IMG/VR virus record: IMGVR_UViG_3300025000_003491
Coordinates: 1 to 39,823 of that record
DNA length: 39,823 nt
Origin: a virus
Strand: one strand, 5' to 3'
This document shows positions 10,859 to 36,959 of this stretch, piece after piece (position 1 is the first letter of the stretch; each line of letters begins with the position of its first letter). Made by a program: the position numbers and the translations under genes. Below the pieces are notes generated by a model. The model was given only the letters and a program-made list of their open reading frames with translations. It did not search any database and was not told the DNA's origin.

Positions 10859-11782
10859 ATGAAAGCGTATAAAGTTTTTGATTCAGAATGGAAATGCCGG
10901 GGATTCCAGTATAAAGTTGGCGAAACGTATGAGATGAAAGAAAAACCGATTTTATGTGAACAGGGATTTCATGCCTGCAAAAAAGTAAGCGATTGTTTCA
11001 ATTACCAAGAATTCAATCCAAAAAACAAAGTTGCCGAAGTTGACTTGATCGGGGATATCGTTGGCGCAGACGGCGATAAACAGGCAACGAATAAAATAAA
11101 TATAATAAAAGAAATCAGCTGGGGCGAGATGCTTGAATTAGCAAATTCCGGTTTGGGGAATAGTGGCTACTGTAATAGTGGCGACTGGAATAGTGGCGAC
11201 CGGAATAGTGGCCACCGGAATAGTGGCGACCGGAATAGTGGCGACCGGAATAGTGGCGACCGGAATAGTGGCCTATTTAATAGTGGCGACCGGAATAGTG
11301 GCCACCGGAATAGTGGCGACCGGAATAGTGGCTACTGTAATAGTGGCTACTGTAATAGTGGCGACCGGAATAGTGGCCACCGGAATAGTGGCCACCGGAA
11401 TAGTGGCGACTGGAATAGTGGCGACCGGAATAGTGGCCTATTTAATAGTGGCGACTGGAATAGTGGCCTATTTAATACCGATGAACCTTTTATACGGATG
11501 TTTAACCGTGATACTGCATTTAAAAGAAAGGAAATAAATATTCCACAATGCTTCTATTTTGATTTAACTTCCTGGATCGGGCATGATACGGCTACGGATG
11601 AAGAAAAAGAAACTTATAAAAAAGAAATAGAAGTATGCGGCGGCTTCCTGAAAACTATTTCTTATAAAGACGCATTCAAACGTGCATGGGAAAATGCGAG
11701 TGAGTCGGAAAAAGAAGAAGTGAAAGAGCTTCCTAATTTTGATACTGATATATTTTTTGAAATATCAGGTATCCGCATTTAA
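10859..11782 (+). CDS. Pentapeptide-type repeat protein with N-terminal phage domain (307 aa)
   Basis: Residues 1-90 (MKAYKVFDSEWKCRGFQYKV, then YEMKEKPILCEQGFHAC) match a domain I know from many phage proteins, often joined to pentapeptide-like repeats (DUF7666-type, from memory). Residues 96-205 are 22 units of NSGxx, where xx is mostly DR, HR, DW, YC or LF. The remaining ~100 residues are a charged globular tail. A regular NSGxx coil should fold as a right-handed beta-helix. The start has SD AAAGGAG. Function unknown; DNA mimicry is known for some pentapeptide proteins, but these repeats lack the usual A(D/N)LxX core. Confidence 0.8.
   Translation: MKAYKVFDSEWKCRGFQYKVGETYEMKEKPILCEQGFHACKKVSDCFNYQEFNPKNKVAEVDLIGDIVGADGDKQATNKINIIKEISWGEMLELANSGLGNSGYCNSGDWNSGDRNSGHRNSGDRNSGDRNSGDRNSGLFNSGDRNSGHRNSGDRNSGYCNSGYCNSGDRNSGHRNSGHRNSGDWNSGDRNSGLFNSGDWNSGLFNTDEPFIRMFNRDTAFKRKEINIPQCFYFDLTSWIGHDTATDEEKETYKKEIEVCGGFLKTISYKDAFKRAWENASESEKEEVKELPNFDTDIFFEISGIRI
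11144..11473 (+). repeat. 15-bp coding minisatellite, 22 units
   Basis: The unit AATAGTGGC plus two variable codons repeats 22 times in frame. The first nine bases are identical in all but the first unit, even at third codon positions, while the last six switch between five variants. DNA-level identity this high points to recent expansion by slippage or recombination. Confidence 0.9.
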
Positions 11783-14568: not shown

Positions 14569-15267
14569 ATTTGTGATTTTGTAAGTTGGATTACGGCTGG
14601 AAGAAAACTTTATTGGCTTGAAGATGATATTATTGAAACAGCCGGATTAGATTTTGAAAATGCCATCGGACATTCGGCTATCGAGGATTATTATAAAATA
14701 AAAGGCGTCCATCATGAGAACTGGCAAAAAGTCCCGATTCAAATCGCCAAAAGAATAAATTCCGGCAATATGGATAAAATGGCTAAAACTTTTGGCGTTG
14801 CCGGTGTACGATATGACGCCAAAGGCTATTGCAAAAATGAATGGTGGTTGAATGCCCAAAAATTTATAAACGGCATAGCGAATGTAAAATGGTTTGATAA
14901 TCATGTGGAAGTAAAAGAAAACTGGAAAGTATTCGATACTTATTCCGCCGCATGGTCCGCCGCATGGTCCGCCGCAAGGTCCGCCGCAAGGTCCGCCGCA
15001 TGGTCCGCCGCAAGGTCCGCCGCAAGGTCCGCCGCATGGTCCGCCGCATGGTCCGCCGCAGAGTCCGCCGCATGGTCCGCCGCAGAGTCCGCCGCAAGGT
15101 CCGCCGCAAGGTCCGCCGCAAGGTCCGCCGCATGGTCCGCAGCCGCTATTATTTCCGAAGATCCGATTGCAATTGATTATTTCAATAAAGTTTGGGAAAT
15201 CTGGAAAGCGGGCTACGGCTATATGTGGGATAAAGATGGTATTTTTTATGTTTATAAAGACTTTTAA
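14569..15267 (+). CDS. Phage protein with SAAx repeats, apparently ATT-initiated (232 aa)
   Basis: The open frame extends well upstream of the first ATG (14770). The extra 67 codons (CDFVSWITAGRKLYWLEDD, then GHSAIEDYYKI) match the start of a phage family I know as MCDFxSW. No ATG, GTG or TTG lies in frame there. The perfect SD GGAGGG (14556-14561) is seven bases before ATT at 14569, so ATT is the likeliest start. After ~125 residues come 16 units of SAA(W/R/E), then a globular tail. The repeat should form a long Ala-rich helix. Function unknown. Confidence 0.7.
   Translation: MCDFVSWITAGRKLYWLEDDIIETAGLDFENAIGHSAIEDYYKIKGVHHENWQKVPIQIAKRINSGNMDKMAKTFGVAGVRYDAKGYCKNEWWLNAQKFINGIANVKWFDNHVEVKENWKVFDTYSAAWSAAWSAARSAARSAAWSAARSAARSAAWSAAWSAAESAAWSAAESAARSAARSAARSAAWSAAAIISEDPIAIDYFNKVWEIWKAGYGYMWDKDGIFYVYKDF
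14944..15135 (+). repeat. 12-bp coding minisatellite, 16 units
   Basis: TCCGCCGCA plus a variable codon (TGG, AGG or GAG) repeats 16 times in frame, encoding SAAW, SAAR or SAAE. The first nine bases do not vary. It has the same design as the 15-bp array at 11144: fixed block plus a switching codon. It is GC-rich against an AT-rich genome. Confidence 0.9.
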
Positions 15268-27915: not shown

Positions 27916-27943
27916 AAGAAATAAAAGAACAACGATCTATAAT
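27916..27943 (+). promoter_or_regulatory. Promoter of the TCTATAATAT family before the 27964 gene
   Basis: TATAAT (27938-27943) has TC before and AT after; the -35 position reads AAGAAA. Expected start near 27950, followed by SD TAAGGAGAAAACA and ATG 27964. Confidence 0.55.
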
Positions 27944-33911: not shown

Positions 33912-34278
33912 AAAATTACCATCCATAAAAAGATTGCGGAACAAAATTGATCAATTGTTCAATAAATATATTCGGGAACGGGATAAAGCTTGTATTATAA
34001 CCGGTGAAACAAATGCATTATCCTGTTCACATTATTATGATAAAAAGAATAATCCTTTTCTTCGATGGGATGAACGGAATGCCCACGCAATGACAATAAA
34101 AATGCATTGGCTCCATCATCACGGAAGAGCGCCTGATTACGCCTTATGGATGTTTGAAAACAATTCCATGGAATTCATGAAGCAATTAGCTATTGATTCA
34201 AAAAAGCTGGTAAAATTGAACAGGAAAAATTATAATGATTTATTGAAATATTATCAGGATAAATTGGATAGCCTATGA
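33889..34278 (+). CDS. NinG/Rap-like recombination endonuclease (129 aa)
   Basis: The sequence RERDKACIITGE, then LSCSHYYDKKNNPFLRWDER, then NAHAMTIKMHWLHHHGRAP follows the NinG/Rap layout (C-x-x-C-G ... GH ... R-F-x-x-x-N-x-H-x-Q-C). It acts on Holliday junctions and D-loops in lambda. Here several zinc cysteines are replaced. TTG at 33889 is chosen over an in-frame TTG 15 bases upstream because AAGGA lies eight bases before it. It is placed behind recA, as expected for recombination intermediates. Confidence 0.7.
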   Translation: MIKKPKRKKLPSIKRLRNKIDQLFNKYIRERDKACIITGETNALSCSHYYDKKNNPFLRWDERNAHAMTIKMHWLHHHGRAPDYALWMFENNSMEFMKQLAIDSKKLVKLNRKNYNDLLKYYQDKLDSL

Positions 34279-34784
34279 AAATATGGATAAGTTTGGTTTT
34301 GTTTTTTATTGCAGTATCATCGGGACCAAGCTCAACAAGCATTCCGGTGATAGAACCCAGAATAATAAAACATTATCAGACTTATTCCATACCCGAAAAA
34401 TATCATTATATTGTCATAAATAGCGCAAGCAAAAACGGAATACCGATATGGTTATTCTCAAGGTTGATAGAAAAAGAATCAAGCTGGAACCCAAAGGCGT
34501 ACAGGAAAAATAAAAATGGATCGAAGGATATCGGGATTGCTCAATTCAATAATAAATATATTGCTGATTATATCTGGTTTGATAATGATGGCAAAAAGTT
34601 TGATCCATGGAACGCCTTTGAATCCATTCCGGTAATGGCCAGATATCTGAAAAGATTATACGACGCTACAAGCGATTGGAGTTTGGCGGTATTGGCTTAC
34701 AATGCCGGATTAAGCCGGGTGCTTGAAAACAAAGTACCGAAAAGCAGTATGGAGCATATGGAAATTATTATGAAAATATATTGA
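34275..34784 (+). CDS. Lytic transglycosylase, SLT type (169 aa)
   Basis: A signal peptide (MKIWISLVLFFIAVSSGP) is followed by an SLT domain: FSRLIEKESSWNPKAYR with catalytic Glu68, KDIGIAQFNNKYI and LAVLAYNAG. It should cleave peptidoglycan glycan strands outside the cytoplasmic membrane, during lysis or entry. It overlaps the NinG-like gene by ATGA and lies far from the main lysis genes on the opposite strand. Confidence 0.88.
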   Translation: MKIWISLVLFFIAVSSGPSSTSIPVIEPRIIKHYQTYSIPEKYHYIVINSASKNGIPIWLFSRLIEKESSWNPKAYRKNKNGSKDIGIAQFNNKYIADYIWFDNDGKKFDPWNAFESIPVMARYLKRLYDATSDWSLAVLAYNAGLSRVLENKVPKSSMEHMEIIMKIY

Positions 34785-34792
34785 AATTTTCC

Positions 34793-34820
34793 TTTATTTT
34801 TTGATTAAATGTTCTATAAT
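34793..34820 (+). promoter_or_regulatory. Promoter giving a probably leaderless transcript
   Basis: TATAAT (34815-34820) is preceded by TC and followed by AT; the -35 position reads TTTATT, as at 3615. The ATG of the lipoprotein is only six bases downstream (34827), so transcription should begin at or within a base or two of the start codon. Confidence 0.6.
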
Positions 34821-34826
34821 ATAAGT

Positions 34827-35270
34827 ATGAAAACATTCAAATTATTTCTTGCGGCTTTGGTTCTTTCGGGTTGTTCGCCTTTTTATCTGAATACCGAAGG
34901 GTATTCTGTCAAGGACGGCGATCTTGAAGAATCGTGGAAAAAAACGGCATCTTATACTTATATATGGGAAGAGCTGGATGCTGAACAATATATAAAATCC
35001 CCGCATGAATTTGAAGATGACGGCGGCGGCGATTGTGAAGATTTCGCTGTTTATTTAATGTACCTTTTGGGGAAGAAATCTGAATTGGCAGGCGTACTAT
35101 TAAACGGAACAACTTTATTCCATGCGCTTGTAATATATAATGGAAAATATCTTGATCCACAAGTTTACGGTAAATACTATACTAAAGATGAATTTATATT
35201 GATAAAAACATATAATTATGATTATATGATGTTTGCGGCTACAAATGGCGGAACAAAAAATATATGGTAA
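34827..35270 (+). CDS. Lipoprotein with transglutaminase-like cysteine protease fold (147 aa)
   Basis: A lipobox signal (MKTFKLFLAALVLSGC, Cys16 lipidated) leads into a domain with GGGDCEDFAVYLMYLLG (Cys70), TLFHALVIYNG (His99) and LDPQVYG (Asp110). This is the Cys-His-Asp order of transglutaminase-like and related bacterial cysteine proteases. It should sit on the membrane facing the periplasm and could cut or cross-link proteins or peptidoglycan peptides. ATG 34827 is used because the upstream ATG lies before the promoter -10; no SD is present. Confidence 0.75.
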   Translation: MKTFKLFLAALVLSGCSPFYLNTEGYSVKDGDLEESWKKTASYTYIWEELDAEQYIKSPHEFEDDGGGDCEDFAVYLMYLLGKKSELAGVLLNGTTLFHALVIYNGKYLDPQVYGKYYTKDEFILIKTYNYDYMMFAATNGGTKNIW

Positions 35271-35482: not shown

Positions 35483-35570
35483 CCGGGTGCCCCTTGCCCG
35501 AATTGAACGGACGGCCTCATCATCCGGTATGGATTCACACCTGATAGCCGGGGCATTTATTTATCCGGTT
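35481..35570. other. Inverted repeat with tRNA-like features between convergent genes
   Basis: AACCGG-g-TGCCCC (35481-35493) is complementary to GGGGCA (35550-35555) and CCGGTT (35565-35570). On the minus strand the inside reads like part of a tRNA: a T-arm GTCCG-TTCAATT-CGGGC with a perfect GTTCRANYC box (35500-35508), then AAGGGGCACC. A GCCCCGG 5' arm gives only five acceptor pairs, and I cannot fit a D-arm or a normal anticodon loop. It may be a decayed tRNA or a bidirectional terminator for the convergent runs. Confidence 0.35.
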
Positions 35571-36067
35571 ACTAATTCTTTTACATATAAAACCCATCCG
35601 GCAAATCCAACAACACCTATTCCGATACAGCCTATTTTCCAATATAGAATCTCATTCAGTTTATTGTTTATTTCCTTCTTCAATACGCCCAAGGACGTTT
35701 CCAAACTCAATACCGATTTCCCTGATTCTTTCGCTTGATCCTTTAGCACTACTATTTCCGATGATGAGCTTTCCAACTGCGTCGATACTATTGACAGTAT
35801 ATTTTTCGAGTCTGTTAAATCCTGTTTCAATATTTTTATATCTTCCTGAGAGAGATTCAATTGATTTCCCAATTCCGTCAATTGTATTTCCGAGGCCGTC
35901 AATTCCAGATTCAATTTTTCGTTGGTTATCATTAATTGATTTTGCAAGGATTTCAAGTTCAGAAACTCTATCTTTGATATTTTCATTGTTTCTTGACTGA
36001 ATAAACAAACCGGCAAGAAAGAAAACAATGCCGATGATAATATAAGGAATAATTTTCTTGAACACAT
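35561..36067 (-). CDS. Spanin-like coiled-coil protein with signal and C-terminal membrane segment (168 aa)
   Basis: The N-terminus MCSRKLFLILSSALFSFLPV is a signal-like segment. A ~95-residue coiled coil (QLMITNEKLNLELTASEIQL) and a hydrophobic helix near the C-terminus (GCIGIGVVGFAGWVLYVKEL) follow. Codon use is like the other genes. The ATG at 36067 is five bases from AAGGAG (36073-36078), which also ends the holin gene. A second frame lies inside it. Topology and place after holin and amidase suggest a role in outer-membrane disruption; this is inference. Confidence 0.65.
   Translation of the reverse strand: MCSRKLFLILSSALFSFLPVCLFSQETMKISKIEFLNLKSLQNQLMITNEKLNLELTASEIQLTELGNQLNLSQEDIKILKQDLTDSKNILSIVSTQLESSSSEIVVLKDQAKESGKSVLSLETSLGVLKKEINNKLNEILYWKIGCIGIGVVGFAGWVLYVKELVTG
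35661..36065 (-). CDS. Nested overlapping gene: N-terminal membrane anchor plus coiled coil (134 aa)
   Basis: The GTG at 36065 is seven bases from the same AAGGAG used by the 36067 gene. The frame lies wholly inside that gene. It encodes a clean anchor (FKKIIPYIIIGIVFFLAGLF) and a helical body (VSELEILAKSINDNQRKIES). A membrane-anchored coiled coil is the layout of an inner-membrane spanin (Rz), and Rz1 genes are known to lie within Rz. The arrangement suggests a similar two-for-one gene. One of the two frames may still be chance. Confidence 0.5.
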   Translation of the reverse strand: MFKKIIPYIIIGIVFFLAGLFIQSRNNENIKDRVSELEILAKSINDNQRKIESGIDGLGNTIDGIGKSIESLSGRYKNIETGFNRLEKYTVNSIDAVGKLIIGNSSAKGSSERIREIGIEFGNVLGRIEEGNKQ

Positions 36068-36069
36068 TG

Positions 36070-36357
36070 TCACTCCTTGGGCTTTCGTTTCAGGAGATTG
36101 GAATACAGGTTATATCCGTATGCACCAAGCGCCGCGTGGACAAGCGAATTTACCGCGTATGACGCCAAAACAAACGGCTTTTCAGTAGCAAAAAGCAACA
36201 AGGAAGCCAAAAGCGGGAATAGTACATACCCCTGCTTGAACCTGTTTTTTCTATCGAAGGATTTCAATAAAGCCGTAAGAAATACCACGCCGATCAAGAA
36301 TAAAGGATCGATCCCAAGTTCCTTGAACAATACCAAAGCCTGATTTATTGCTTCCAT
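36070..36357 (-). CDS. Putative holin (95 aa)
   Basis: Three hydrophobic segments (about residues 16-32, 44-58 and 62-82) with a basic tail (NLLKRKPKE) fit a class I holin. The layout FLIGVVFLTALLKSFDRKNR, then FKQGYVLFPLLASLLLF, resembles phage holin families I have seen beside amidases. The ATG overlaps the amidase stop by one base. It would form the membrane lesions that release or activate the amidase. Confidence 0.65.
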   Translation of the reverse strand: MEAINQALVLFKELGIDPLFLIGVVFLTALLKSFDRKNRFKQGYVLFPLLASLLLFATEKPFVLASYAVNSLVHAALGAYGYNLYSNLLKRKPKE

Positions 36358-36959
36358 TATTTTACTCCCCGTTTTATATCTTCGATAAACGCATTGAACA
36401 ATGTCGGTTTATTTACCCATAGACGTGGGCAATCTTTCCAGCCGACTACCATATTATGCGTACCCACGGAATCTTCCCTTATATTAAATTTTTTGCACAA
36501 TGAAATAACCAATTCAATTGCGGAAGAAATAGTAGCATCCCGGAATGTTCCCACAGAATCAATTGCGCACATTTCTATTCCGATGGTTACTTGATTCGGG
36601 GATGATTTTATTTTATTCGGATTATTGTATCTTTCGATATTGGCGTATTGGCCGAATTTTTCCCGTGCCCAATCAGTATAAATAACTTCGCTTTTCGGAT
36701 CGATCAAAGATGACCCGCAATGATACGCCATTTCAGTATCAGGTATGACATGAAATGTTTCTCCGGTAAAATCAATTATATAATGCGCAGATGAATAATG
36801 TTTTTCTTTTGGGCAATCATTCTCAAAATAATCCCATATTTGTTTTGTGGTATGCCCATAAGGCCCGGTCCAGTGCATTATAATTCCCGATACTTTTTTC
36901 AGATTCCTTCCGGGCCTCGTATATTCATTTATCGCAAGATATTTTTCGGTTAATGTCAT
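36357..36959 (-). CDS. N-acetylmuramoyl-L-alanine amidase endolysin (200 aa)
   Basis: Amidase_2-type zinc and catalytic blocks are in order: IIMHWTGPYGHT (His29), SSAHYIIDFTG, DTEMAYHCG and GTHNMVVGWKDCPR (late His and the K-x-C-P end). The family cuts the bond between muramic acid and L-alanine. It has no signal peptide, so it needs the adjacent holin for export. The domain fills the protein; no separate wall-binding domain is seen. Confidence 0.9.
   Translation of the reverse strand: MTLTEKYLAINEYTRPGRNLKKVSGIIMHWTGPYGHTTKQIWDYFENDCPKEKHYSSAHYIIDFTGETFHVIPDTEMAYHCGSSLIDPKSEVIYTDWAREKFGQYANIERYNNPNKIKSSPNQVTIGIEMCAIDSVGTFRDATISSAIELVISLCKKFNIREDSVGTHNMVVGWKDCPRLWVNKPTLFNAFIEDIKRGVK

Follow-up and report, generated by a model that had tools for sequence, protein, structure and literature searches.

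On the minus strand of a 39.8-kb virus fragment (GC 35%), the whole of which is called the window here, one stretch of DNA at the end of a holin-endolysin cassette encodes two full-length proteins, A and B, behind a single ribosome-binding site, and these two proteins probably represent a two-component spanin of unusual topology (Table 1). This assignment is based on the dual coding and its conservation, the position in the cassette, and the fact that the two halves are homologous to single-chain relatives from the branch where B is a lipoprotein.

Table 1. Genes, signals and predicted membrane segments of the lysis region of the window
Feature	Position	Strand	Description and basis
ORF A	35561..36067	-	ATG start; 168 aa; signal-like N-terminus followed by a long coiled coil and, at the C-terminus, a membrane helix
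ORF B	35661..36065	-	GTG start; 134 aa; frame +2 relative to A; coiled coil behind an N-terminal membrane helix
C-terminal membrane helix of A, about residues 143-162	35582..35641	-	Sequence; AlphaFold2 helix 119-167
N-terminal membrane helix of B, residues 6-24, IIPYIIIGIVFFLAGLFI	35994..36050	-	Sequence; AlphaFold2 helix 6-24
AAGGAG, ribosome-binding site common to A and B	36073..36078	-	Sequence
Holin-like small membrane protein, 95 aa	36070..36357	-	Putative holin, from position and hydrophobicity
Endolysin, N-acetylmuramoyl-L-alanine amidase (Amidase_2)	36357..36959	-	Pfam PF01510 E=2.1e-18; PHROG endolysin E=5.4e-37

The AAGGAG motif is separated by 5 nt from the ATG of A (36067-36065) and by 7 nt from the GTG of B (36065-36063); the leader of this region reads AAGGAGTGACAATGTG. 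The two starts are 2 nt apart and the genes overlap over 402 nt. GTG is the sole start codon of ORF B, as the open frame extends 8 codons further upstream and none of these eight is a start. Neither an Rfam family nor a special fold (z=0.15) was found at the start site. The original prediction, according to which an ATG and a GTG behind one AAGGAG open two long frames, both encoding a hydrophobic N-terminus and a coiled coil and the longer one also a C-terminal membrane helix, is confirmed by the sequence.

Both frames are open far beyond chance. When protein A was kept and its synonymous codons were drawn from the usage of the phage, 9.5 +/- 2.6 stops appeared in the B frame, which was stop-free in none of 20,000 trials; the same randomisation with B kept gave 14.6 stops in the A frame, also with no stop-free sequence among 20,000. 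Shuffling of A's own codons left the B frame open with P=0.0004. No comparable out-of-frame run is present in the other genes of the window, the next longest (104 codons) being expected for its gene (P=0.23). The share of T at the third position of A codons is 14% in the overlap, versus 31% in the tail of A and 34% in the genes of the phage, as avoidance of stops in the B frame would produce. A spurious B frame was rejected as an explanation because stops are avoided in both directions.

Conservation in relatives points the same way. Among the 31 cassette pairs considered (window included), B always lies in the identical frame relative to A, and when either protein was randomised, no more than 0.7% of trials left the other frame free of stops. 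Both proteins are retained in seven related prophages (L183, L194, L230, L232, L235, L240 and L215), with no stops in either frame, while about two per pair are expected, and with every change of length preserving both frames. Substitution rates at A codon positions 1, 2 and 3 in these prophages are 0.25, 0.30 and 0.36 in the overlap and 0.38, 0.36 and 0.51 in the A tail. Among three closely related pairs, the 30 changes silent in A alone are balanced by 26 silent in B alone, and changes non-silent in both frames are fewer than expected (24 versus 35). These patterns, characteristic of overlapping genes, show selection on both frames.

The initial cassette pairs were picked for having both frames open; the later searches with A only are free of this bias, and their outcome was the same, with the exception of three loci in which A itself is broken (L263, L264 and L266), short fragments, and L302. 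In L265, the B frame is open over 111 aa. A frame broken by stops in relatives had been named beforehand as the result that would contradict dual coding: in more than 40 loci, L302 aside, no intact A is accompanied by a broken B, and the substitution patterns in the seven prophages and three close pairs indicate constraint in both frames. By randomisation, by the shared frame in relatives and by selection on both frames, the claim that two complete frames are real protein-coding genes is strongly supported. Codon usage, which is phage-like in A and not in B, hints that A is the older frame. The same difference is what would be seen if A were the sole gene and B a compositional accident, an explanation that is scarcely credible given the stop avoidance both ways, the same frame in more than 40 loci, the conserved B proteins with lipoboxes, and the B-like half within the single-chain forms described below.

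The pair is located in a cassette with a holin-like gene and an endolysin gene, as is typical for two-component spanins. The holin-like gene lies directly upstream of A and ends just ahead of A's start codon; its product gave no significant match to a family in Pfam or PHROG. Matches of A and B to PHROG spanin families are marginal (0.023 and 0.013, respectively). Dual-start holins with two closely placed starts are known, and the starts of A and B, two bases apart, resemble them; nevertheless, it is very unlikely that A and B are a holin/antiholin-like regulator of lysis timing, because a separate holin-like gene is present upstream, A and B are long coiled-coil proteins that carry one membrane segment or two, and B is a lipoprotein in many relatives.

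Several other features were noted in the window. Convergent with the lysis genes are a lipoprotein gene (LSGC lipobox; 34809-35270, plus strand) and an adjoining gene for an SLT transglycosylase (34275-34784, plus strand; Pfam 2.8e-15). The former encodes the only clear lipoprotein seen near the cassette, and its pattern GGGDCEDF...FHALV...LDP is reminiscent of transglutaminase-like proteins. Tandem arrays are present inside ORFs at 11097-11528 (15-nt units) and 14908-15171 (12-nt units, reading TCCGCCGCAWGG). A repeated motif near TGATCTATAATATAAGTATAAGGAG is located before or at gene starts at 27933, 29141 and 34810; perhaps it is a phage promoter with a ribosome site.

The N-terminus of A is signal-like, MCSRKLFLILSSALFSFLPVCLFSQE, with hydrophobic residues 6-25, and overlaps the region encoding the N-terminal membrane helix of B; the C-terminal helix of A, a hydrophobic stretch at about 144-162, is encoded wholly past the stop of B, outside the overlap. 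AlphaFold2 models contain helices 32-114 and 119-167 in A (pLDDT 86) and helices 6-24, 30-105 and 111-133 in B (pLDDT 82); local confidence is good and global confidence low, as would be expected of coiled coils modelled on their own. The predicted topology of A is type I, N-out/C-in. B, with its helix 6-24 followed by a coiled coil, is predicted to be an N-terminally anchored inner-membrane subunit with a periplasmic domain.

B of the window contains no cysteines and thus no lipobox, so that the pair lacks the outer-membrane lipoprotein subunit found in many relatives. The cysteines of A are at positions 2 and 21 in the signal region and 147 in the membrane helix; neither protein has a periplasmic cysteine of the type that links spanin homodimers by disulfides. 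No outer-membrane anchor was identified in the sequences of A and B. The lipobox rule for spirochaetes covers position -1 (PMC6529012), and A was rejected as a lipoprotein because its sole candidate lipobox, LPVC, breaks this rule. The proposal that A alone is a unimolecular spanin (u-spanin), with a lipid at Cys21 and the C-terminal helix, and B its accessory inner-membrane partner, draws on the position of Cys21 at the end of the hydrophobic stretch, a similarly placed cysteine in L093, and the existence of single-chain u-spanin-like relatives; it is unlikely, as LPVC and SFPC both deviate from the lipobox rule and such a cysteine is absent from most other A proteins.

Direct searches of IMG/VR with A, B, the holin-like protein, the tail protein and the polymerase revealed no relative, nor did searches of GenBank phages with A, B and the tail protein of the window or with A and B of L183. 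The helicase-methyltransferase led to an 83% relative (L013, a 12.6-kb contig), in which no endolysin match was found. The successful route to relatives, in viral contigs and bacterial genomes, was the endolysin alignment. Bacterial endolysin relatives include Treponema and other Spirochaetota, several of them labelled as horse, termite-gut or rumen isolates; judging by these spirochaete records, the host of the virus is probably a spirochaete.

Beside lysis genes, 30 further A/B pairs were found, with both frames open in the same relative frame as in the window. They consist of A, with signal, coiled coil and C-terminal helix, and an overlapping B, downstream of endolysin or holin-like genes. 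The starts are offset by 2 nt in 14 of the 31 cassette pairs (window, L093, L153, L183, L194, L230, L232, L235, L240, L255, L260, L272, L273 and L215); of these, L093 uses TTG at this position and in L215 A has no start codon there. The layout with AAGGAG and two starts is repeated in L153, L183, L194, L230, L232, L255, L260 and L272, and a single ribosome site with starts two bases apart also recurs in L235, L240, L273 and L093. In the remaining pairs the offset ranges from -178 to +53; a shared ribosome site is therefore common in relatives and not essential, and the suggestion that one ribosome site sets the ratio of A to B is no general rule of the family.

Two kinds of B were distinguished. 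A lipobox, for example CGGC (L183, L255) or FSSC (L113), is present in B of about half of the relatives (L094, L113, L117, L173, L183, L194, L221, L230, L232, L235, L255, L257, L258, L260, L261, L272 and L273), while a membrane-type B, with an N-terminal helix and no lipobox, is encoded in the window and in L093, L105, L123, L146, L152, L153, L156, L177 and L238. The lipoprotein-type pair of L183 and the membrane-type pair of L238 both follow holin-like genes, and since these are 73% identical, the two types of B swap at one place. The membrane-type and lipoprotein-type families show weak homology, part of which lies in the noise range of coiled coils; because reversed sequences score nearly as high, homology of the two types of A is not claimed. 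In L240 (minus strand, 1468-1863) the cysteine of the lipobox is replaced (CSGY instead of CGGC) with both frames still open, which is a possible step from a lipoprotein-type to a membrane-type B and may also be a sequencing error. In L096-L112, L119 and L176, an endolysin of the same family is followed by another kind of spanin-like pair, with the classical Rz/Rz1 layout, in which a lipoprotein gene overlaps that of a short N-anchored protein.

A search of 195 Treponema-family genomes with the A profile, blind to B, revealed four loci with a single ORF (L267, L268, L269 and L279), in which a lipobox at the N-terminus is followed by a B-like and an A-like part, with a helix at the C-terminus. 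They thus combine in one chain the lipobox and C-terminal membrane helix that define a unimolecular spanin. Of these two features, A of the window possesses the helix and no valid lipobox. The B profile matches the N-terminal halves (L268 2.7e-14, L267 2.6e-12, L269 1.3e-9, L279 2.3e-9) and the A profile the C-terminal halves (L267 3.7e-21, L268 1.3e-14, L279 1.9e-10, L269 4.3e-8), with shuffled controls reaching no better than 0.02. L267 also matches a PHROG 'spanin' family (9.4e-5). Small holin-like membrane genes precede the single chains of L267, L268 and L279; in L267 and L268 they are in turn preceded by genes of peptidases (C39_2, M15_4), which could be endolysins, and the holin-like genes of the fusion L279 and of the overlapping pair L273 are 79% identical. 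Given the lipid and C-terminal helix of the single chains, the pair of the lipoprotein branch looks like a u-spanin in two chains. Origin of the single chains via a simple frameshift was rejected, as their B and A parts jointly exceed the shared stretch, according to profile positions.

Relatives of the window's own, membrane-type branch were found in Treponema-family genomes. A of the window alone matches 16 of the 195 Treponema-family genomes (best E=7.2e-8). A profile built from six of these 16 matches recovers A of the window with E=1.7e-16 (residues 3-159), and the corresponding B profile recovers B with E=7e-5 (residues 11-131), a value equalled by none of 300 shuffles. Window-type pairs with both frames open in the same relative frame were identified at 13 loci; their B frames run for some 150 aa or more without a stop, and B starts with a membrane helix at all of them except L312. 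At L312, located in the same place as L287, a B-type membrane-helix head continues in frame into A's coiled coil and C-terminal helix; this may be a fusion, as if by frameshift, or a sequencing error. The six inspected loci (L280-L283, L286 and L287; surroundings L288-L293) are solitary pairs, each among different chromosomal genes, including era, lipB and genes of an ABC transporter and an aminotransferase. No lysis genes were in sight in these surroundings, and no phage genes were recognised within about 5 kb.

Accordingly, both frames could be genes of a spirochaete envelope module, such as a scaffold in the inner membrane or a regulator acting on the wall or membrane, which is carried by some phages beside their lysis genes and is not a lysis device. 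The 13 window-type pairs in Treponema-family genomes, with the six inspected ones standing alone, and the lack of an outer-membrane anchor in both A and B agree with this explanation. Against it, the membrane-type pair follows the endolysin, and the holin-like gene where seen, in the window, L093, L123, L153, L156 and L238, and behind the same holin it takes the place of the lipoprotein-type pair. An envelope module is a less probable explanation than a spanin. The solitary pairs may be lysis genes that stayed behind on the chromosome or were adopted by the host, or this branch may have another envelope role. The designation of A and B as lysis-type genes, made from the sequence before relatives were known, gains from the position beside holin and endolysin and from the lipoprotein-bearing and fused relatives; caution as to lysis is due mainly to the closest inspected relatives of the window pair, which are solitary pairs on Treponema-family chromosomes, outside lysis cassettes.

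For a spanin, the following sequence of events is proposed. A and B would be translated together from the single ribosome site; A would be exported by its N-terminal signal, which may be cleaved, and would then be held in the inner membrane through the helix at its C-terminus (N-out, C-in), while B would be anchored via its N-terminus. In the periplasm, the long helices of both proteins, predicted coiled coils, would pair with each other, and once the wall had been cut by the endolysin, the A/B complex would draw the membranes together and help to disrupt the outer membrane. In the lipoprotein-type relatives, the N-terminus of B would be at the outer membrane and the C-terminus of A in the inner membrane, which is the arrangement of a u-spanin divided between two chains. 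In the window, the membrane helix of B would replace the lipid anchor, and the membranes would be bridged only if another outer-membrane contact exists.

Two-component spanins with embedded, overlapped or separated genes are known, as well as u-spanins (Kongari et al. 2018, PMC6139136). Similar to lambda Rz/Rz1 and other embedded or overlapped spanins, A and B are encoded last in a holin-endolysin cassette, in overlapping frames, and are membrane-attached coiled-coil proteins; B of the window has a predicted N-terminal inner-membrane anchor, like an i-spanin of the Rz/Rz1 kind. Unlike Rz/Rz1, the window pair includes no lipoprotein and no periplasmic cysteine, and its longer protein begins with a signal-like sequence and ends in a membrane helix. 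The precedent of Rz/Rz1, cited in the original prediction, is therefore right in kind, whereas membership in that class does not hold, as the anchors differ, a lipobox is absent and the longer protein is anchored C-terminally. About 70% of embedded o-spanins start at 0.4-0.5 of the i-spanin (PMC6139136), whereas the shorter B starts where the longer A starts. Unimolecular spanins such as T1 gp11 are resembled in the C-terminal membrane helix of A, in the N-terminal lipid supplied by B of the lipoprotein branch, and in the four relatives that join both halves; unlike them, the window pair consists of two chains in two frames, is helical and not beta-rich, and has no lipobox. With neither lipoprotein, periplasmic cysteine nor u-spanin lipobox, the window pair is filed in neither spanin class, and most likely it works like a variant of the known ones.

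Kongari et al. (PMC6139136) mentioned that an i-spanin might also be an inner-membrane protein of type I, a kind which their criteria did not cover, which was not sought and for which no example was given, and stated that none of the u-spanins resembles an o-spanin. The predicted A, N-out and C-in with a C-terminal membrane helix, is like this hypothetical i-spanin and differs from it in being accompanied by an overlapping partner gene. The family offers candidates for both gaps: type I subunits with overlapping lipoproteins, and single chains whose halves are homologous to both overlapping proteins. No such A/B pair is described in the available portions of a Leptospira prophage survey that sought spanins (PMC8705779) and of a 2025 survey of lytic proteins (PMC12596118). 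It is possible, though not probable, that in spirochaete phages two-component spanins and unimolecular ones can be converted into each other, the pair being a u-spanin split into one N-anchored and one C-anchored chain on the same DNA, and that the lipid-free pair of the window would disrupt the outer membrane without a lipoprotein.

The A/B family is a conserved example of two full-length proteins encoded in different frames with starts two bases apart, and it can serve as a key when lysis genes are sought in spirochaete phages. Related viruses keep the double-coding pair, some of them as one chain, which suggests a two-part version of a machine that breaks the outer membrane.
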